DNA of 64,000 bases, from NCBI GenBank assembly GCA_034620365.1, contig JAQGEQ010000191.1:806001-870000 (forward strand), written 5' to 3'. The translations under genes and the position numbers were made by a program. Positions 49,701-64,000 of this stretch are shown here, piece by piece; the first letter of the stretch is position 1, and each line of letters opens with the position of its first letter. The notes beneath the pieces were generated by a model. That model saw nothing but the letters and a program-made list of their open reading frames with translations. It was not told the DNA's origin and did not search any database. The stretch comes from Pegea sp. RAD2-039. Its lineage: Eukaryota; Chordata; Thaliacea; Salpida; Salpidae.

Positions 49701-51489
49701 GTTGATGTAAACGAGTAAGCTGAACACACATCAGTATATTTGATAATAAATAAGAGTATATAAAAAGATTGTGCTTCTCAGTCAGCTCAAGAAATACTGC
49801 AGATTACATAATTTTTTGTTTTTCCACATTGACTTTTGTTTTCATTTGCAAATGTTTTATATTTGACAGAATTGTTACGCTATAAAATTTCAGTCTGCTA
49901 ATTACCTTATTGATTTTTTATTTAAAGATGTAAGTAAGATGATAGGATGTCAGTAAAAATGCATTTTTATATATGTTTTCCAAAGTTTTAGATTTCTGTC
50001 AATAACAAAAACAAATAAAATCAATTAATGAGAATAACTAACATGAAATCATTAAATTTAGTAAATGACATCGTACGATACACTAAAATTTTGATTATAA
50101 TGTTTAAACATGTTGTATAATAAATAACAATTACAGCTATGTTGTTTGCAAAAATATAGGTTGTCAAAACACATTGATCTTTAGTTGGTTAATTTTGCAA
50201 GAATGAAATCTTATTTTTCAGAATTTAAGTCTATTCTAATAAAAATTTAGAAAGTTCTAATTTAAGCAACGAAGCTTACATAAAACTGTACCTTAACTAG
50301 ACATGAATATTTTTAATTCATAAATCTACAGAGGTAAACTCATAAGAAGTGGTGCTGGGTGTACTACTTGAGTTGTAAGCCATGGAATCAATCTTCAATT
50401 TGATGTTGAAGTAACCATAAAAGTTACTGAGATCAAAAAAATTCAAGTTTTTTTATATATAGACTTCTATTTCTTAAATCTTATGAAGGGTTAATCTCCG
50501 ATAAATTTCGAAAAAATATAATAGGAGTTGTCAAAACTTTGAAGCTCAAGGAATGCTTTTCAAAGGTAGTAGAATCTTTTTAAGTCATAAAACTACAATA
50601 AATACACCGATAAACAAATATTCAAAATTAAGAACTTAAAAGTTGAAGTAATGTAATTTTATTGCGAAATTTCACATTTAATATTTAAGTTAGCGCATTT
50701 GTACAAGACTACTTGCAAAAGATGATTAGGATGTTTGTCAGCAAATTAGCTGAAATATCGATTTTCATCTTTCTTAAAAAAAGATTAACATCCTTATGTC
50801 AAACAAGAAGCAAAAAAGCTTCAAATCAGTTGCTACCAAATTGAAGTTTTTTCTCAAACAATGACTAAGCAGATCTTCCACTATTGGCTCAACATAGTCT
50901 GTTTTCATATCTACAAAATCCAAATGAATAAGATCAAAAATTACGAACGCTTTAACTACCATAAGCATGACAAACAATTTCATAATGACTCAAAAGAATT
51001 CATCTCACAAACTCGTCGACTAGATAAATTGGTAAAGTGTTTACCAAAAGCAACGAAAATTCCATCAAACATGATGATTTGCTAAGAATGAAAAATGTAG
51101 TGAATATTTATTAGCGAGTTTTTTTTTTCAAAAAAAATTAAATGAAACAAATATTGTGATTCAAAAAACGGAATCTTTTCGTTGTAACGAGTTATTCACA
51201 GATGTAATTCATGTCTGACAAAACTGTCAAATCAGCAACCTATTTGTTGTCATCATGATGATAGATGTCTTTCCTTCGCTAAATAAATCAATTTAAGGAA
51301 TAAGATTAGAATTTTAAAATCTTTTAAATTCATTAATCTGTAATAATTAAACGTATTTGTTTTAATGCAGTCAACTGTTAAAAATGCTTCTGTTAATACA
51401 TCTATAATTTTCAAAGTTTTAGTAATATTTCTGTAGGAAGAATACTGGGTAGTTACTTTTAGTGCTTAATTACATTGTGAAGTGTATTT
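43747..51489. other. AT-rich stretch with no gene seen
   Basis: About 7.7 kb upstream of the opsin start. On the opsin side an AG acceptor at 43795-43796 (minus), preceded by a T-rich run, lies 50 bases before the opsin ATG. Elsewhere the two overlapping opposite-strand frames at 50774-51085 read as low-complexity AT-rich peptides without motifs. No tRNA, repeat array or transposon end was recognised. Confidence 0.55.
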
Positions 51490-53957
51490 ATCAAAAATTA
51501 AACAAATTATCACATGAACATCTTTTTATGACCATTTTTCTTATATAAGAAAAATCATAATAATAATATCCAAACTAGTAATATGATGGGTACAGTAAAA
51601 AGACGTAATGAGATTTATGATACAATAGAATGAATACTTCACCTGCATGAGATGCAATTGACATCTTCAAAATATTTGAGGTAAGAACTGATCAGTAAAT
51701 TCACAATTTTTTAATTCAGAACTTCTTTGAAAAAATTTATGAAGCTAAAAACAGAAAAGCATTCAACTTAGCAGTTGCTAAACATTTCAACAATCAAATT
51801 AAATAAATATTCTTTCAGAAATTACTTTATAAAAAGACAAAAACACCATAAATCAAACCATCTTTAAAAAGAATAAAATTTATTCTCTAAAATAATAGTT
51901 AGATGACATAGAAATCAAATTGGTCAATTTTTCATATTCATTACAGAAACCATTAACAAACCATTTTAAAACTTTAAATTCAAATCTTCTCTTAATAGTA
52001 GCTTATCTGTCATAGAGTGGGTAAGTATAGATTTGTATATGTACTAACATTTCTTTACTTATGAGATTAAATCACTCACAAAAGATATTACTGCAGATAA
52101 TTATAGCTAAGCAAATAATACTCTGAAAATTTGTTCTTCAAAATCTCAATGAAGCTTTATAAAATTTAAATCAAAACAGAATACAAGTACAGAGCGAGTA
52201 AGCTTATAATTTATATAAAAAATGAATAATAATATTACAATGAGACAATAAATTATCTTATTTATAAAACATAAATCTTAAATGATAAGGATTTCGGCAA
52301 AATTAATTAGAATCACAAATTTTTAAGAACCGAGAAAAAATCTTTTTGTTTCTCTGAATGCTTTAAATAAAAATCCACCCCATTGGCGTAACAAAAAATC
52401 ACCACGTTGCGCGTACCAAATACCAAACATATAACCACCTATATGGACTACATAATCAATATCAATTTCTAAATCTAATTCAGATAATTGACTAAAAGAA
52501 AATAGCATGAATCCAAAAACTTCTGCAGTCAAAAATAATTCTAACAAATCATTGTAATTAAACAATCGCCCAGAAGGTAATTCAATGTGCGTATATTCAA
52601 TTGGTAGAAAATTCTTTTTAGTTAATTCGTAACCTAGAAGGCTACAAACAACACCCGATGCTCCATGTGAAGGACTATCTATACCTAAAAAGACTTTAGA
52701 TGCAAAACCGAAAATACCAGATACAAGAGCTGACGAAATATAGAAACAAATAAATTTAATACCGTTACATGAATTTAGAAATGTACATTGTGAATGTGTG
52801 GTGTTCTTCCAAATAAATAAACAACTATGTAAAGAGACCATATCTGCGAATAGATGGGTAAATCTAATATGACTAAAAGAACTAAGAAATAGGGAAATAA
52901 AAGTGCAATTACATCGATCAGTGGATATTAGCATATAAGGTATCATATAAGGATGCCAGCTTTTAACTTTCCAAGCTGAATATACGAGAACATTGATAAT
53001 AGTTATTGCAGTAAAGCACTTGTCTATAGGACATTGAGCACGAGGTACATCCAATGCTTGGCTGAGTTCAGGGTCATTGACATAGCGATGCTGGTTGACA
53101 AGATCTTCATTATAAGTAAAATATATGCCACTAATTCCATATATAGCAAATATCGAAACATTACAGTAAACAGAATATTTAAGCAAAGTGTCTATCATCC
53201 GTAAATCATCATCAAGTAGTTGGTAAGATATAAATGGTTCAATTTGATCGGATAGTAAATAACATCGTCGAAATAATGGAGGAATTTGTATTAAGCTTTT
53301 AACTTGTAACATTTTCTCAAAAAAACTAACACAACATCCATTAAAAGAAAACATTTTGGATAACAATTAATTCAGAACATGACAACAAACACGAATTTTA
53401 AAATTAACTTTGAAAAAAATAACTAGACTAGAAACTTAAATAAAACTAAAATGTCTTTTCAACAAAGTGGTATTGCAGACTAAAATTAACTGTAGTAACA
53501 ACAAGACTTTCAAAAAACAAATATTTCAAATTCACAATCTAGATATTTTTCTTTAGAAGCATTAAAATTATAAATCAAAAATTTATAGTTGAAATTTTTA
53601 TCTTACTGTCTTAAAAGACAAAACCATATTGAAAAGCAAAATTTCAGAAAACGAACGTAACACATTTTTACAAATAGAGGACACAACTTGATGCAATATT
53701 CTATATATAGAAAAATTATCATTTTGAAATTATAGTTTTTCCAAGCAAATAGATTTATGAAAAAAACAATAACTTAAAACATCAAATCTTGCAAAAGTTT
53801 AATAATTTTGATCAAATTCAAAAATTTCGGTAAAAGAAAGAACTTAGTTCAAGGAGTCTTTCAGTGAGAAAAACTTTATGATAACTTGTGATACTTATTT
53901 TTATGACTAACATTAATAATATGCTCTTTGAAAATAAAATACCCATGCTTAAAAAAA
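51490..53957 (-). repeat. left copy of PARL-like direct-repeat block
   Basis: This block of about 2.47 kb matches 60852-63258 in the same orientation. It contains PARL-like copy 1, its downstream noncoding flank (51541-52300) and its upstream flank. The downstream flank is nearly identical to the right copy: I count about three substitutions, a 3-base indel, and an extra segment of about 40 bases at about 51722-51760 that the right copy lacks. Similarity falls in the coding region and fades further upstream of the gene, ending near the shared CCATGCTTAAAAA. Confidence 0.85.
52323..53366 (-). CDS. PARL-like mitochondrial rhomboid protease, copy 1
   Basis: Probable intramembrane serine protease of the PARL type, which in animals acts in the mitochondrial inner membrane. 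The single uninterrupted frame gives 347 residues, near human PARL (379). Rhomboid marks: FLSSFSH before the HxxxN helix, HGASG with catalytic S237, and DYVVHIGG with catalytic H308, followed by FGIWYAQRGDFLLRQW, very like the PARL C-terminus (HLGG-FGIWY). The N-terminus has basic and hydrophobic residues (LFRRCYLL, 31-38) that could direct import. In the oxyanion motif, HxxxN, position 175 is Asp here (HLFAD), while copy 2 has Asn. Absence of introns, in contrast with intron-rich neighbours and multi-exon vertebrate PARL, suggests an mRNA-derived copy. A splice-acceptor-like CAAAG after a T run lies about 42 bases upstream. Confidence 0.85.
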   Translation of the reverse strand: MLSKMFSFNGCCVSFFEKMLQVKSLIQIPPLFRRCYLLSDQIEPFISYQLLDDDLRMIDTLLKYSVYCNVSIFAIYGISGIYFTYNEDLVNQHRYVNDPELSQALDVPRAQCPIDKCFTAITIINVLVYSAWKVKSWHPYMIPYMLISTDRCNCTFISLFLSSFSHIRFTHLFADMVSLHSCLFIWKNTTHSQCTFLNSCNGIKFICFYISSALVSGIFGFASKVFLGIDSPSHGASGVVCSLLGYELTKKNFLPIEYTHIELPSGRLFNYNDLLELFLTAEVFGFMLFSFSQLSELDLEIDIDYVVHIGGYMFGIWYAQRGDFLLRQWGGFLFKAFRETKRFFLGS

Positions 53958-55939
53958 TTAACATGCTCGACAGTGTATTAGCGATATCGATATTTCATCT
54001 AAATTGTTTTAGTAAAATGAGTAAACATTCTTTTGTCAAAATTCAAAAATAATCAACTTGTTTACTATGTTCTAATGAGTTGGCGTATTTATTTTTGGGA
54101 AACTAACTTCAAAAGTCTGGTAAATCTTTACTTTTACATTCTTGTTTTATCACAAATTCGGTTTTCTATTCTAACTGAATTGCGAAAACTTCAGAAACCA
54201 TAAGCTTCAAAAAACTCCATTGGCAGCATCCAAGAATTGATTTTACCAATTTGTTTACCAAGACTAATCACCTTTAAGTCAAAAGTTTCTCTAGCTTTGA
54301 TGGTTTGCTAGGGGGTGGAAAATGTAGCTCTATTAGTATAGTCTATTACCAAGCTATGTTTTCCAAGGAAAAAGTTTTTTTAATTAAAAAAGATATACTG
54401 TGGTTATATAATTTGTGGTACAATTTATTTTCTCCTTGCAAGGAGTTATTTATAAATTATAGATATAGGAAAGTGTCAAAGTTTTTTTCAAAATTAAAGA
54501 AAATAACAGATTGTTGAATACAAATACATTATTTGTCATCAGGCTGAATAATCTCTTTCTTTTCCGGATAAATAATTTTATAACTAATATTATAACTTTT
54601 CGGAAAAATAAGTCATACAATTTGTTAAGACAATTAGCACGGCCTAAGCACAACACTGCTGCAAATATTATCGGATTACCACAGTTGGCATCAATAAAAC
54701 TTTTTATCTTGTGATAATCCAATTAGTTTATTCTAATCCAGTTTACATAAATTTGGTATGTCCAACGTCTTAGAAATGAGTTCTCTATGGAGGCTGAGTT
54801 TGAGGGTCCTAGATTTAGAACAGTGTGCATTAGAAAACACCAATTGCCTTTAGGTTTATGTCTCATCTATATAAGCAATGGATACATTTTTACGATTAGT
54901 AGATTATTGTAGGAATCAAATAATCAGACATATTTTAGATATTTTTTTTAATTTTAATAAACTAATTTATAAAAAGTATTTTTAATACTTAACTTACGTT
55001 TTATAAATTAAATTTTTTTCTGGTTGTGTTAGATCGAAGAAATAGAGTTAAACAGAAGTTAGACAGAAAAATGTGAGTGATTTGTCATTCAAATTATTTC
55101 CACAAATTGTTATTATCATAAATCTAGCTGTTATTTTAATTACACTAAAAATGGAAATCGTTGAAAAAGTTGCATCTAATTCTATTTTAATAAGATACAT
55201 AAAGCTTGTTTAACAGAATGTTGTAGAATTTATTTTAGAATATATAAAGATAATTTCTATTTGAAAAAGATATAAAGAGTCGTTTCTAAATCAGGTTCAA
55301 TATATTTGAAATTTTGTTTATAGATAAATTTCATGTTTCTGTGATATGAAGCTACCATCATTGAAAAAGTACTATACTGTATGCTAGGAATGCTTTCACG
55401 ATAATGTTGACAAAGGCGTTTAGTCCTTGAGATGCACGGAACTATTCCTTCTGTATTCAATATTTAAAGATTTCTTTGGCCTTTGGCACCAAGGTAGACA
55501 AGACTGCTACTAAACATATGAGTTCCGGTCTTACCAGTGTAAGCTACCAATTTGAAAAGACCAATAAATCAAGACAAAGCAATTTTGTCTTGCCAAGATT
55601 TAAGGTTCATATAGAAGTTAAAAACTTGAATAAAAAGTTGAAAATTTTAAAGAAGAACTTATAAATGAGATTCAAACTCATATGCCACCAAAAAAAATTC
55701 AAAGATTCGAACTTAATCAAATTTTCTTAATTGAGAACAACCTTAAGACAATATTGTCAAAAATAAACTGCTGAAACTCCGAAACCTCTGCATTGACCAA
55801 ACAAACTGTAACTATATATAACCAGGCCAAGCAAAAAGCTACATGGGTTTAATAAAATACTAGTAAAAGAACAATGTGAAAACGGGAGGCTGTCCAGGTA
55901 AAAGAGAGTAGTGTTATATTTGCTATTATCAACGGTTCT
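53958..55939. other. intergenic DNA upstream of PARL-like copy 1
   Basis: No gene is supported. Short frames at 54305-54722 overlap on both strands and lack motifs. The stretch 55476-55664 (+) is somewhat Ser/Lys-rich and could be a decayed first-frame part of the adjoining LINE, but I cannot show this, so the LINE is drawn from about 55940. Confidence 0.4.
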
Positions 55940-57000
55940 GTTATAAATCTTTCGTATCAATCCCTAACTTCTCAGGGTTCGACGCTAATATTTCTACTAC
56001 CAATACTATAAACCCACGTACCTCAAAGTATTTTAGCATCAGATCTATGACAAATCAGTTAGACCTTGTACCCAACTATCTTGACTCAAACCAAAATATT
56101 GTTCCTGACTCTGAGTCTTGGCTATTTGATAAAATCTCAAACTCAATGGTATGCCCTCTTGGCTATGATATCATTAGACTTGATTGCATTCATACTAATA
56201 ATAAAAATAGGGGCCTGCTTCGGCCGAGAACAGCGACTCACACTAAAAGGAACCTAAAAGTTTAACAGGCTTATACAAATCTAGACTCTTTCTCATCTTT
56301 GAGAAATTGAAAGCGCTTTGTCGACGATTCCAACCTTTTTAGTGCAAACTCAATTACTCTCTTATCTTCCTTAGTCTACTAACATATGGCTTCAATCCAG
56401 ACAACTCAAGCTAGCTACCGGCCAATGTTTCCTTCTTTCAATAAGTAAACCCTCAAACTTTAACCTAACATCACCTGACTTTTATGTATACAACAATAAC
56501 ATTTCAAATGTCTGGTCATCACAGACTTGGGTATCTTCATCTCTCACGATTAAAAAGGGGTAGGCAAGGTAAATCATTTAATCCGAATTGGTTCATCTAC
56601 TTCATACCAAACTCTCAAGTCTTATAAAAGCAGAAATATTTAGACAGTTATAATTTTTTACCATATACATCCGTTCCAAATTAGTTTGATTCCTCTGTAC
56701 GAAGTATATACCTTAAAAAGGATATTATAAAGCTTGAATCCATTCAAAAATCATTTACTATAAAAGCTTTCCTTAGATGTGGCACACTGTTCATAAGAAG
56801 GCCGTCTCTGTAAGCTTGATACTAAATCCTTGCTATATTGGCATCGTTTCTATAACCTTACGAAATTAACAAGTTTCTTTCATTTTAACTTAAATGACTT
56901 CTTAAAATCTTTCATAAACCTCAAAGGCTTGTGATTCAAACTAACCTACTCAACAACTATAATAAAACCCAGTAAAGTAACATTTTTCAATAAGGTAACC
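55940..57000 (+). mobile_element. degraded non-LTR retrotransposon (LINE), internally deleted
   Basis: Broken reading frames carry LINE landmarks in the right order. Around 56047-56250 is an APE-type endonuclease segment: NYLDSN, then SESWLFDKISNSMVCPLGYD and a GG-containing stretch. From about 56500 come pieces of the reverse transcriptase C-terminal region: TSYQTLKSYKSRNI near 56600, KLESIQKSFT at 56730-56759 and LDTKSLLYWHRFYNLT at about 56815-56862. Endonuclease and C-terminal parts are only a few hundred bases apart, so most of the reverse transcriptase core is deleted, and several frame shifts and stops are present. The motif style fits the CR1/L2/Jockey kind; I cannot fix the clade. 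It lies in opposite orientation to the KAP gene and just beyond its 3' end. It is inactive. Confidence 0.75.
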
Positions 57001-57324
57001 ACGGTTTATAACATTCTTGTCGACCCTATCACTTCGATTAGGATTGTTTTAAAAAGTTATGATAAGAAATTTACCTAACTAATATTAATTAATGCTAATG
57101 TGTTATTTTGTATTTTTGATTTATAATTTAAGCTTACTTTTCCTTCGCATTTGTTCTACATTATTTATGTTGAACTGTGATATTTCAAACCTTTTCATTA
57201 TTCTTTTCCAGTTAGATCGTTCTATATTCGCGTTAAAACCTTTACAGATCTGCGAGCATGCATCGAAAAAAATAAACAGATTTCGTCGTATTAAAAACGA
57301 CTTTAAATGAATATTATTCGAACA

Positions 57325-60300
57325 CTAAATGGGGCACTCTACTCGTTTCCAGAACTGGTTTAAATTGATGGAAACTGTTTCGTAGTTGATGACATCATCA
57401 ACAGTGAGATTACTGCGTTGTAGGAATAGATGAAATTGATGTAGATTTTCAACAGGAACTATATCCAGTTTTTCAATAGTTGTTTGAAAATTAGTTTCAC
57501 TGAAAATAAAAACTCAAAATGAAAATTTCAACAATTGATTTTAATTTCACCTGAAAATCTCTGCAAGTGGCTTCTCCATCAGTAAGTCTTCTTCATCATC
57601 AGATATAATCGAATATAAGAAAGATGATCTACAAGGCCACTGCTCACAAAACATCAACCAGTCCACTAACGACTTTGCGTCTAACTTTTTAGGTTTTAAA
57701 TCAACAATTCTTTTTTCAGCTAAAAAAATCGAAATTTTATATTTGAATCAACCCGAATTACTTTCGTTTTTAAAGTTGCTACCTGGCTTCAGTTTCATCT
57801 TATCAAGAGCCAATTTTTGTTGCTTCTATCAAAACAGAATTAATGTGTGAATGAATCATTTAAGATAAGTTAGCAATTTTGACTGACCATTTTCTGAATC
57901 GCTTCAATCAAAATCGTAGCAAGAGTGATAATGTTGAAGAATCTTTTAATTAATCGAGGATTTCCATCAAGAGAGAGTCGAACCTCTTCACATTCATTGA
58001 AGTACTTCCTAATTGAAAAAGTTGTTGTCAGTTATTTGAAGCAAAAAGTAATTAAGATATGAAGCGACCTGCAGTGATGTAAAAACTCTTCTTTGCTGAA
58101 GTCACTTTCTAAATGCATCCGACTAGTTGCAGGAGCAGAATCCAACACATCTGAACATAAATTGAGATCAGAAGTTGGATTTGGATCAGAAGATGAATTG
58201 AGATCTGAAGATTGTTTAGGATCAGTTGACACAGGAAGATTAGGTGAAAGACTAGAACTTTGATCTTCAATCAACTTCTCCGAGCCAGGACTCTTTGATC
58301 TGCAAAGATTCATCTTTCACACTCTTCTCAAATACTCAATCAACTTACAACTTAATCAATAAATTTACCTTAAGCAAGAATTAACAAGAAATTCTTCGGC
58401 GGGTTTTTTTGAAAGGTCTTTCTCTGTTGATTACAAATTAAGATCAACTTCTCAAAGATAACAAATTCTTACTTTGATTCTTCTGTTTTGAGTCCTGGCG
58501 TGCAGTTTCATTTATTAGTCCGGATATCATCAGGCCTTTATCCTCTTTACTTAACTGTCAATAAAAATGATTGAAAATATGTGATGATGATGATCTGATC
58601 TTCCACCTTTGGTAAGCAAATTGGGATATCAATGACATTTTTAATGAAATTTTCTGTCATCAATTCTTTTTCAGATCCTTTTCCGTAAGTATGGATTGGT
58701 TCGAGACCAACCAAACACATCAGAGGTGAATGTTTGCTGCTAGTCAATACATTGACCACATCCAATACATCTGCTGCCTGCGACCACATAATCATAGTGG
58801 TGACCAGGTTACTGGGACGCTTACCACTGGACAGCGTTCAAGTCCGTTGAAGATGATGACAACTTTGTAATCGATTCCATCCACAAACGAAATTGCATCG
58901 ATGAATTTTTCCAGCTTTTGTATCTTTTTAAACAAAATAGTTTTGCTTCTGAAGTGGTCACGTGAGTTTGAAAACCTCTTTTTTGACGACTCCCATGAAA
59001 CCGCGTCCAGTTGAAATCTCTTCAGATGAAAATTTAATTCTTTTATTCATGGCTTCAATCCGAGATCTAAAGATGGTCGCGATGAATTTAAAGATCACAA
59101 CAGAAGAGGCTAGAGTAGCAGGTAACCACGAAACCACTTGAACCATGACAGGGACCAGTCGACCTGTCTACATGTGGACAAGGATAAAAGTTTTGCAATC
59201 TTAGATTGGGGAAGTACCCGAAAAATATCCAACTTGGCTAAATTGACCAGTTTAAAAATCACAATTGGAAGAGCTACCATAAAAAAGATTCCAAAAACGA
59301 CTCCATAAATACGAGGAAATCCACAGAAACTTTTTCTGGGATATTTACATAAATGTGAAAGAATATTTGGTTTATACCTGAAAATAATGAATCAATTTTG
59401 GAACGATTTTATCAAATATCTTACCAATTGGTTGAATCACGTGACACTTCAACTACAGTATCTGGAAGCAATCGAACCATCTGTAAGTTATCACCACCAC
59501 CAACTTCGACACCAGCTTTGGCATCAACTTCTAGAGTTGCATCAATTCCTTCGTTACGAAGTCTCTCAACAACTTCTTGAGTTTGTTTGAACTTTTTTAA
59601 CGTGACTAACCAGCCACTAACAACTTTCTGACATCTTGAAACCTTTCCATATTTTTCTACACCCGTCACGATCGTTTTGTCACTGACTTCATCATTGACT
59701 CGAATTAAAATAGAGTTTGCATCTGAGCTAGATCAAATACAAACAATTTAATGAAACAAAATCAGTAAAAACATCAACTACCAACTTTGCTTTTGGTTTC
59801 GACATTTCTACCGATTTGAACATGTAAAACAGCCTCGACGTAAAAACACCAAATTTCTTTTCAACTGCTGTTTTCATGTTGATAACAATTTCAGCCCATA
59901 ATTTATCAGATCCTGAATAATCTCTGGTTGAAAGAGATACAAAAACAAACCTACGAGGCTTGTATTGGGTTTGATTTTTCCTGGTGTAAAAATTTCAATA
60001 AAAAACTAAATAAAACATAAAAAACAAACTTACTGATTGTAATATGTCGAAGAAGAAAGGCAATTGTTATGTGCGCTCAGATGGCTTTTCAAGGGTAGAC
60101 GTGTAAAAAGTACAAAGAAAATCATTCTAAGAAACCTCTTGATAGATTTTAAAGAGTTGCCATGTTTTGAAGAACAGCAACAAGAAATAAAGATTATAGA
60201 AGAAAATAGAAGAAATATGGAAAGATATATTGTGATGATGTAACTGTTTATTACAAATGAAGATTCAGGTTTTTCTGTCGTGAGGTTGAAAGAATTTGTT

Positions 60301-60838
60301 TGGTTTGCAACAGATTGCTGAAAAAAGGGAGGATACATAAAAAAGAAAAATAACGAAATTATTGCAGTGAATAGGAAACTTATCAACAATGTGGTGATAA
60401 ATAATGTACATTTTTTGCTGGATTTTGTTCGAACTTTTTGATCACTTTCAAAACTTTTTAGTGAACCTTGAAAAGTTAAAATTAAGAACAATTACAAGTT
60501 TGATTGATCTACAATTTTGACAGTTTTTAACAGAGCAAATAAATTAAAGCTACAAAATAAAATTAAGTAAATAACAAACAAGTATAAAAATTGAGATCTA
60601 AAAATTATAAAAAATAATTTAAGAATTTTGTACAACATGAAAAGTTTTAGATAATCAAAAACTTCAGTTAAATAATTTCTACAATTTCAATTCTCTCACT
60701 GAGAGTGCATTCCAAAAAATATGATTTGCCGTATCCACTGGGAGCAAATACTCCCACACAGATGGGAGATGCAACATCTAAAAGATATTTGGCAAGTGAC
60801 TCAGAGATGGCTGAAGTGCCTAAATGATCAAAAGATCC
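57325..60838 (-). CDS. KAP-family P-loop NTPase with four membrane segments (5' end not found)
   Basis: Membrane-linked P-loop NTPase of the KAP family (Kidins220/NKPD1 kin). Exons in order: 60838(or to about 60866)-60700, 60466-60034, 59980-~59804, 59727-59425, 59377-59218, 59167-58976, 58923-58825, 58777-58607, 58554-58473, 58423-58369, 58299-58069, 58008-57888, 57825-57783, 57719-57551, 57499-57325; about 849 residues. Walker A is APSGYGKS in the first exon. Two pairs of hydrophobic segments (second exon; fifth and sixth exons) lie between Walker A and B, the hallmark of KAP proteins. SLSTRDYSGSDKLWAEIV follows the first pair. The Walker B region reads VVIIFNGLERC, with Asn where KAP proteins usually have Asp. 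A Ser-rich insert precedes LSLDGNPRLIKRFFN and LMFCEQWP, typical of the KAP C-terminal part. Most introns are about 45-80 bases. The junction between exons 3 and 4 is the one I could not fix firmly. No in-frame ATG is visible at the 5' end. Confidence 0.85.
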
Positions 60839-60851
60839 TGCAGAATAATCA

Positions 60852-63258
60852 TCAAAAATTAAACAAATTCTAACAAAAAACTTTATATATCCATTTTTCT
60901 TATATAAGAAAAATCATAATAATATCCAAGCTAGTAATATGATGGGTACAGTAAAAAGACGTAATGAGATTTATGATACAATAGAATGAATACTTCACCT
61001 GCATGAGATGCAATTGACATCTTCAAAATATTTGAGGTAAGAACTGATCAGTAAATTCACAATTTTTTAATTCAGAACATTCAACTTAGCAGTTGCTAAA
61101 CATTTCAACAATCAAATTAAATAAATATTCTTTCAGAAATTACTTTATAAAAAGACAAAAACACCATAAATCAAACCATCTTTAAAAAGAATAAAATTTA
61201 TTCTCTAAAATAATAGTTAGATGACATAGAAATCAAATTGGTCAATTTTTCATATTCATTACAGAAACCATTAACAAACCATTTTAAAACTTTAAATTCA
61301 AATCTTCTCTTAATAGTAGCTTATCTGTCATAGAGTGGGTAAGTATAGATTTGTATATGTACTAACATTTCTTTACTTATGAGATTAAATCACTCACAAA
61401 AGATCTTACTGCAGATAATTATAGCTAAGCAAATAATACTCTGAAAATTTGTTCTTCAAAATCTCAATGAAGCTTTATAAAATTTAAATCAAAACAGAAT
61501 ACAAGTACAAAGCGAGTAAGCTTATAATTTATATAAAAAATGAATAATAATATTACAATGAGACAATAAATTATCTTATTTATAAAACATAAATCTTAAA
61601 TGATAAGGATTTCGGCAAAATTAGTTAAAATCACACATGTCTAAGAAAAAAGAATAAGAAAAAATCTTTTCGCTTCTTTGTATGCTTTAGAGAAAAATCT
61701 ACCCCATTGGCGTAACAAAAAATCACCACGTTGTGCATACCAAATACCAAACATATAACCACCTATATGGACTGCATGATCAACCTTAAATCCAAAATCC
61801 AATTCAGATAATTGACTAAAAGAAAATAGCATGAATTGAAAAATCTCTACTGCCAACAATAATTCTAACAAATCATTGCAATTAAATAATCGCCCAGAAG
61901 GTAATTCAATTCTTATATATTCAATTGGTAAAGCACTTTGTTTAGTTAATTGGTAACCAACAAGACTACAAACAACACCCGAAGCACCATGTGAAGGACT
62001 ACCTATACCTAAAAAGACTTTAGATGCAAAACCGAAAATACCAGATACAAGAGCTGACGAAATATAGAAACAAACAAATTCAATACCGTTACATGAATTT
62101 AGAAATGTACATTGTGAATGTGTGGTTTTCTTCCAAATAAATAAACAACTATAAAAAGATATCATATTTGCGATTAGATGGGTTAATATAATATGACTAA
62201 AAGAACTAAGAAATAGGGAAATAAAAGTGCAATTACATCGATCAGTGGATATTAGCATATAAGGTGCCAGATAAGAATGCCAGCTTTTAACTTTCCAAGC
62301 TGAATATACGAGAACATTGATGATAGTTATTACATTAAAGCACTTGTCTATAGGACATTGAGCACGAGGTACATCCAAAGCTTGCCTGAGTTCAGGGTCA
62401 TTGACATAGCGATGCTGGTTGACAAGATCTTCATGATAAGTCAAATATATGCCACTAATTCCATATATAGCAAATATAGAAACACTACAGTAAACAGAAT
62501 ATTTAAGCAAAGTGTCTATCATCCGTAAATCATCATCAAGTAGTTGGTAAGATATAAATGATTCAATTTGATCGGATAATAAATAACATCGTCGAAATAA
62601 TGGAGGAATTTGTATTAAACTTTTAACTTGTAACATTTTCTCAAAAAAACTAACACAACATCCATTAAAAGAAAACATTTTGGAAAACAATTAATTTAAA
62701 ACATGACAACAAACACGAATTTTAAAATTACTTTGAAAAAATAACTAGACTAGAAACTTAAATAAAACTAAAATGTCTTTTCAACAAAGTGGTATTGCAG
62801 ACTAAAATTAACTGTAGTAACAACAAAAATTTCAACAAAAATATTGCAAATTCACAATCTAGATATTTTTCTTTAGAAACATTAATATTGTAATTCAAGA
62901 AATCAAAGTTCAAATTTTTATCTTACTGTCTTAAAAGACAACCTCATAAGGAAAAGTAAAATTTCAGAAAACAAACGTAACACCTTTTTTACAAACAGAA
63001 GACGAGGCTTGATGTAACTTTGTATATTCATAAAAAATATATCTAACTCAAATTTATAACTTTAACAATCAAATCTTTGTAAAACCTGAACAAAAGTTTC
63101 ATCAAATCTGAAATTGTCGAAATAAGAAAGGAAAGATTTCAATGAGATTTGTTATGTTTTTGGAAAGATAAACAGGCCTTAAAAGAAAAATACCAATTAC
63201 TTTTACGACAAGTTTTCCGGATATGATCTTTGAAAACCAAATTTCCATGCTTAAAAAT
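60852..63258 (-). repeat. right copy of PARL-like direct-repeat block
   Basis: Matches 51490-53957 in the same orientation and holds PARL-like copy 2. Its left edge (TCAAAAATTAAACAAATT at about 60852-60869) abuts, and may overlap, the first recognised KAP exon. Its noncoding stretch 60911-61620 is nearly identical to the left copy. Upstream of the gene (62691 onward) similarity is high for about 150 bases, then patchy to about 63258. Confidence 0.85.
61641..62690 (-). CDS. PARL-like mitochondrial rhomboid protease, copy 2
   Basis: Second intronless PARL-like gene, 349 residues, about 86% identical to copy 1 (some 48 replacements in the aligned part by hand count). It has the full rhomboid set: HLIANM with the oxyanion-side Asn at 175, catalytic S237 in HGASG, and H308 in DHAVHIGG, followed by FGIWYAQRGDFLLRQW. 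Differences from copy 1 are densest in the HxxxN helix, the loop after TM5 (about 244-262), the stretch 278-307 and the last 20 residues. The final residues (FFLILFS) differ outright. Intact frame and conserved catalytic pair argue that it is functional. Upstream, a T-rich run ending in CAAAG (AG at 62731-62732 on the minus strand) could be a leader acceptor. Lies directly upstream of the KAP gene on the same strand. Confidence 0.87.
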   Translation of the reverse strand: MFSKMFSFNGCCVSFFEKMLQVKSLIQIPPLFRRCYLLSDQIESFISYQLLDDDLRMIDTLLKYSVYCSVSIFAIYGISGIYLTYHEDLVNQHRYVNDPELRQALDVPRAQCPIDKCFNVITIINVLVYSAWKVKSWHSYLAPYMLISTDRCNCTFISLFLSSFSHIILTHLIANMISFYSCLFIWKKTTHSQCTFLNSCNGIEFVCFYISSALVSGIFGFASKVFLGIGSPSHGASGVVCSLVGYQLTKQSALPIEYIRIELPSGRLFNCNDLLELLLAVEIFQFMLFSFSQLSELDFGFKVDHAVHIGGYMFGIWYAQRGDFLLRQWGRFFSKAYKEAKRFFLILFS

Positions 63259-64000
63259 AGTCAAATTTTTCTTTGCACTACCTATATTAGATTACTAAGA
63301 TTACACTTATATTATTATACTTATATTATATACTATGTACAATAAACCCTTTAAAACAGTTAAGCGTCTCATATGATCCAAAATACTAGATAAGTTTTAA
63401 ACAGATGATAAAATGTGAGTTTTTAGCAATGATAAATTATGTAATGAAAAGCTTTCTACCTCCTCTGACTAAATAAATTACTGTTATAGGCTGGTTTAAT
63501 TTAGAAATAAACTAATTTTGATTAAACTCAAAAGTCACATGTAAATTTAAAAAATCAAAACGCTGTATTTTTGGAAAAGCTTTTTTTCTAAACTAGTTTT
63601 AATAATAAATAATGAAATCCATTGACTTATTGAGAGCTCAAGCTTATTCAGAATTAAATGTTAAATAATCTCTAAACATTTAGTTTTTTGTGATAACATC
63701 CTTAAAATATATTATTTATTAATAAAGCATGATATACAAAACATTTGATTAAATTAAGACTACATGAAACTAAAATAAAAATTGAAAATTTTCTGAAGTA
63801 GTTTTTTAACAAAAAATATTGTTTAAATGTAATAAAAACAACTCAAAACATTATCATTGTATATTTTTTTCAAAGCTTTCACAACACGTTAAACTGCTGA
63901 AAACTCAACTAAAATACATTTTCGCAGACTTAAAAAACCAACACTTTCAATTTTCCTGCTTAAACTAAGTTTTTACTTCAAATTTAAAAAAAAATGAAAA
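63259..64000. other. AT-rich flank with no gene seen
   Basis: Beyond the right repeat block I see only AT-rich DNA with a small tandem-like run of TTATATTA units near 63303-63340. If a first KAP exon exists upstream of the rhomboid copy, it is not recognisable here. Confidence 0.5.

Follow-up and report, generated by a model that had tools for sequence, protein, structure and literature searches.

In the duplicated L and M opsin genes of gibbons, conversion has left the exons more diverged than the introns, and replacement changes are not in excess (PMC3213168). Divergence peaks have been described in opsin exon 5 and in the colobine RNase duplicates, whose noncoding sequence is less diverged than their coding sequence; for the RNases conversion has been proposed and that reading has been disputed (PMC3924837). 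The paralogs GOT1p1 and GOT1p2 of Tigriopus californicus form mosaics of high- and low-divergence blocks, with low Ka/Ks and tracts of inter-paralog conversion (PMC3728101).

Here we describe two tandemly duplicated rhomboid genes of Pegea sp. RAD2-039 (Salpidae), whose mosaic of divergence we attribute, with a probability of about 0.87, to ectopic gene conversion between old tandem duplicates in at least two episodes. They lie in a stretch of 64,000 nt (assembly GCA_034620365.1, contig JAQGEQ010000191.1, positions 806,001-870,000 of the forward strand), which we call the window and to which the coordinates below refer. Like the primate L/M opsins, the pair has noncoding parts that are more alike than the coding parts, probably through conversion (PMC3213168; PMC3924837). 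Unlike in the opsins, part of the coding sequence is homogenised here, no intron is visible, and the copies have no known functional difference. Functionally important replacements are documented for the colobine RNases, whereas none is documented for the rhomboid pair (PMC3924837). The pair is also like GOT1, where the sequenced region is likewise intronless and divided into mosaic blocks, although the GOT1 mosaic was seen in several populations and the rhomboid mosaic in one genome (PMC3728101).

The pair lies within two direct repeats. Copy A occupies 51490..54018, with clear homology from 51490 to 53750 and weak homology to about 54018, and copy B occupies 60851..63326, about 9.36 kb away and in the same orientation; blastn aligned the two with 91.4% identity over 2271 columns. 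The weak homology out to about 54018 was significant (extension score of 44 versus a maximum of 26.5 in 300 shuffles), and the 400 bp to the left of 51490 gave no homology between the copies (score of 18.5 versus a shuffle maximum of 25.0). Both repeats sit close together on the same strand of one 1.0-Mb contig, with about 7 kb of other sequence between them. A DNA search of the whole assembly (105.7 Mb in 387 contigs), in which very common words were skipped, found two copies and no third, and on this search we rejected the possibility that the 3′ flank of the genes is a dispersed repeat. A longer tandem unit, one taking in what separates the two copies, was also rejected: among the DNA matches listed, the repeat itself was the only strong one. 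The many weak listed matches of about 60% identity in this AT-rich sequence were treated as noise; a much-decayed longer repeat unit may nonetheless be present.

This arrangement makes it extremely unlikely that the pair is an assembly artefact in which allelic copies were joined in tandem, or in which polishing homogenised the flank. The two places are on one contig, with unrelated sequence on the left side of each repeat; the spacer of other sequence separates the copies; searching the assembly turned up no other matching place; the outer repeat edges differ by 15-33%; and a 38-bp difference has been kept between the copies inside an otherwise near-identical tract.

The interval between the copies contains a spliced-looking gene on the reverse strand (57300-60850) that adjoins the left edge of copy B and has a Walker-A-like stretch recognised by eye; a search for the KAP NTPase family listed no match at this place. 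A 117-codon open piece at 55912-56265, by eye like a decayed retroelement, lies at the margin of the 4-kb bin that has the highest GC content in the window (56001-60000, 34%).

Each repeat carries one rhomboid gene on the reverse strand, encoded in one open frame of 347 codons in copy A (52323-53366) and of 349 codons in copy B (61641-62690), with a TTG start and the first ATG at codon 5 in both. Both products matched the Pfam rhomboid domain PF01694 above its curated cut-off of 22.6 (E 5.9e-9 and 36.7 bits for copy A, E 2.6e-9 and 37.8 bits for copy B), and both have the serine of a GxSG motif and the histidine of an HxxGxxxG motif found in rhomboid proteases, namely Ser237 in GASG and His308 in HIGGYMFG, which we take to be the catalytic pair. 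The GxSG and HxxGxxxG motifs and the Pfam domain are shared with the PARL-type mitochondrial rhomboid proteases, and by the resemblance of the motifs, on which the subtype rests, the copies may be of this type. Both genes probably encode a mitochondrial rhomboid protease. Searches by sequence against solved structures gave no rhomboid match for the copies, and NCBIfam gave no match for either. The zebrafish gene parla is reportedly the subject of a published study; a search of the literature on duplicated PARL genes returned, among the matches listed, no title on PARL duplicates under gene conversion.

A six-frame genome search with copy B at E values up to 1 listed just the two loci, and the Pfam rhomboid model gave at least 8 matches on at least 6 contigs, two of them being copies A and B. 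The best other rhomboid match, L012 (C14:199217-202594), is about 25-27% identical over the main aligned stretch and therefore cannot serve as an outgroup to polarise the DNA changes. It is a highly diverged locus with GASG/GASM and HLFGFLFG motifs that is interrupted by introns or stops, whereas the two copies in the window are single open frames. Upstream of another rhomboid match, an open stretch (L007 199-816) holds many copies of a short NFSCKHC-like repeat. Within the pair, a weak 25-base tandem repeat of about 2.1 units occurs at the same C-terminal place in both genes (52369-52420 and 61693-61744).

The initial annotation had contrasted a near-identical 3′ flank with more diverged but intact coding sequences, and its counts were reproduced on re-alignment: about three substitutions and two indels in the flank (3/733 differences; 3 bp and 38 bp), and 74 bases and 48 residues over 341 aligned codons in the coding sequence. 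Both reading frames are indeed intact, with one in-frame indel in 1044 bp, a length change of 6 bp at the C-terminal end. Counted by alignment columns, the coding differences come to 78/1044 (49/340 + 29/704) and the noncoding differences to 65/1170. The repeat flanks contain eight indels, one of them at the poorly aligned outer edge.

Segmentation of the alignment by BIC gave five blocks, described here on copy A. The leftmost, from 51490, has 7/40 differences. It is followed by the near-identical noncoding tract of the 3′ flank at 51532..52305 (3/733), which corresponds to 60891..61623 in copy B, where the 3 bp and 38 bp present in copy A are missing. A high-divergence block at 52306..52662 (53/357) comprises the last 17 bp of the 3′ flank and the C-terminal third of the coding sequence, its coding part beginning two codons ahead of the catalytic Ser (codon 52656-52658) and ending with the stop. 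The low-divergence block at 52663..53558 (38/892) comprises the N-terminal two thirds of the coding sequence and 192 bp of 5′ flank, this near 5′ flank having 9/188 differences. The outer 5′ flank at 53559..53750 is again highly diverged (42/192), reaching 33% in its last 76 bases in a seven-block solution. The five-block model was the best (BIC 961.2, versus 1067.8 for one rate and 1018.2 for three annotated parts), and a two-rate model of coding and noncoding sequence (1072.2) was no better than the single rate.

The coding sequence is therefore itself a mosaic, 4.1% diverged in one block and 14.4% in another, and the broader claim that the noncoding sequence is more conserved than the coding sequence did not survive: near-identity is confined to the 3′ flank, and divergence in the outer 5′ flank (22%) exceeds that of the coding sequence (7.5%), so that noncoding sequence as such is not conserved. 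The longest identical run between the copies is 474 bp, and none longer than 235 bp arose when the 133 differences were scattered at random 20,000 times across 2184 columns, so that near-identical blocks occur beyond chance in these otherwise diverged duplicates. When the coding sequence was taken by itself, its longest identical run of 77 bp fell short of significance (p = 0.15), but its differences were significantly clustered (0/20,000 permutations). Runs of five or more A or T change fast, and such runs are identical in 8/10 cases in the 3′ tract versus 1/6 in the outer 5′ flank. The block edges are independent of the annotation. Of the four inner edges, one is close to the stop codon, and with four random edges one falls within 18 bp of either coding end in 12% of trials; this edge does not coincide with the stop codons, as had been described, but is 17 bp beyond the coding sequence.

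Silent and noncoding sites are equally diverged within the same blocks. In the low-divergence block 6/144 silent and 9/188 noncoding sites differ (Fisher, p = 1.0), and in the high-divergence blocks the counts are 14/70 and 42/192 (p = 0.87). Within the gene, silent divergence rises about fivefold from the low block to the peak (p = 0.0006), replacement differences rise at this edge too (22/543 versus 32/266, p = 4e-5), and silent sites of the peak differ from the 3′ tract with p = 2e-13; the silent-site test divided the gene at 52678 and the segmentation at 52662. These p-values are approximate, as the tests reused the data from which the block edges had been picked, and the Fisher and permutation tests assume independent, homogeneous sites. 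Because the silent step lies within the gene, coding status cannot explain it; position, and not coding status, sets the divergence, which is the signature of ectopic gene conversion. The suggestion that the flank is a recent gene-conversion tract is thus well supported, by the five blocks, the 474-bp run and the agreement of silent with noncoding sites within blocks.

The other reading offered at the outset was that the 3′ flank is itself strongly constrained, for example as a noncoding RNA or an enhancer. Very strong constraint of this kind, a 3′UTR element being a further candidate, would accommodate 3/733 differences beside 15-33% in the unconverted sequence. We consider this very unlikely, since the N-terminal coding block also has reduced silent divergence and a constrained flank would leave the silent-site step inside the gene unexplained. 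The near-identical tract moreover has sharp edges on both sides and contains the 38-bp and 3-bp indels; its longest open frame is 43 codons, and at 23.5% GC it is as AT-rich as its surroundings (25.5% GC in the adjoining 5 kb on the left). A search of 51400-63400 against Rfam at E up to 1 gave no match, and on neither strand did the flank fold more stably than 20 shuffled sequences (z of +0.66 and +1.30), with 16 and 18 of the 20 shuffles, respectively, folding at least as well. A structured or known RNA was rejected on these grounds; the 3′ flank may act as an untranscribed enhancer.

Gene conversion being the preferred reading of the mosaic, the coding changes themselves gave no sign of adaptive divergence. 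Replacements account for 54 of the 74 (73%), the remaining 20 being silent. The earlier statement that at least three quarters alter the protein was about right as a count, but this proportion is slightly below the neutral expectation of about 79% (809/1023 sites), and so gives no sign of adaptive change. Estimates of omega used 341 of the 347/349 codons, the unalignable C-terminal tail being dropped. By NG86, omega was 0.70 for the whole gene (p = 0.18), 0.97 for codons 1-229 (p = 1.0) and 0.56 for codons 230-341 (p = 0.12). A maximum-likelihood (ML) codon model gave 0.56 for all codons (p = 0.046), 0.78 for codons 1-234 (p = 0.61) and 0.42 for codons 235-341, where omega = 1 was rejected from below (p = 0.03), these three tests being uncorrected. 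Further whole-gene estimates of dN/dS were 0.79 (LWL85), 0.58 (YN00) and 0.54 (ML). Two of six 57-codon windows reached 2.2-2.3 by NG86, each on one silent change (p = 0.69). The gene was split at codon 229/230 for NG86, at 234/235 for ML and at base 52662 in the segmentation, with conclusions that agree. For the whole gene and its two parts, neither NG86 nor ML gave the dN/dS above 1 that would indicate positive selection on the duplicates. The idea that selection drives the proteins apart is not supported: in the diverged block the estimates of 0.42 (ML) and 0.56 (NG86) show no sign of adaptive change, omega = 1 being rejected from below there by ML and not by the NG86 counts.

Selection could have acted differently, with conversion occurring generally and being removed by selection in the C-terminal catalytic part because the two proteases have different jobs, in which case the divergence peak would mark the selected region, as in the primate opsins; we regard this as possible but unlikely. 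The peak at 52306-52662 does reach from just before the catalytic Ser to the stop, the recent tract halts 17 bp short of the coding sequence, and the intact frames with their single in-frame indel would suit two working proteins. Residue 175 points the same way: it is Asp in copy A (codon 52842-52844) and Asn in copy B (62166-62168), and L012, which matches weakly (E of 0.02 to copy A and of 0.21 to copy B), also has Asn at the aligned place. In bacterial rhomboids the Asn of an HxxxN motif at the equivalent place helps to form the oxyanion hole, and we take the motif around residue 175 to resemble it. Residue 175 is thus possibly the oxyanion position, and Asp175 of copy A would be a mild hint of functional divergence or changed activity, judging from the aligned residues. 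The catalytic residues, which had been called intact, are so for the Ser-His pair but perhaps not for position 175.

Residue 175 lies outside the divergence peak, however, the remainder of the gene has undergone conversion, and chance could well place an edge this close to the coding sequence, by the frequency among random trials. Omega in the peak, at 0.42-0.56, shows no excess of replacements, though a low omega alone does not exclude selection, the gibbon opsins having no such excess either (PMC3213168). The more specific proposal, in which the functions are split, copy A has lost the oxyanion Asn at 175 and selection repeatedly rejects conversion in the catalytic third, is more doubtful still. 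If selection of this kind were at work, the divergence peak would map the specificity-determining region of a rhomboid protease, the flank being homogenised freely.

Ectopic gene conversion, to which we return as the preferred reading, would have proceeded as follows; we infer the process, the number of its events and their order. An old tandem duplication, which the repeats show, gave rise to the two copies, each at least 2.2 kb long (2.5 kb if the weak edge is counted) and with one rhomboid gene, at a distance of about 9.4 kb from each other; their unconverted parts have since diverged to roughly 15-33%. Non-allelic homologous recombination without crossover would then have let one copy overwrite parts of the other at least twice. 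The older event or events would have covered the N-terminal two thirds of the gene and the near 5′ flank, now about 4% diverged, and the recent event about 0.77 kb of the 3′ flank, now 0.4% diverged, with its edge just beyond the stop codon. The C-terminal third (52306..52662) would have escaped the recent conversion, and 53559..53750 would be an unconverted edge.

Conversion between duplicates is an ordinary, well-known process, to which this pair adds a further example. Noncoding sequence that has diverged less than the coding sequence next to it is not necessarily constrained, nor are the proteins necessarily adaptive, and the comparison of silent with noncoding sites within blocks demonstrates this point from one genome.
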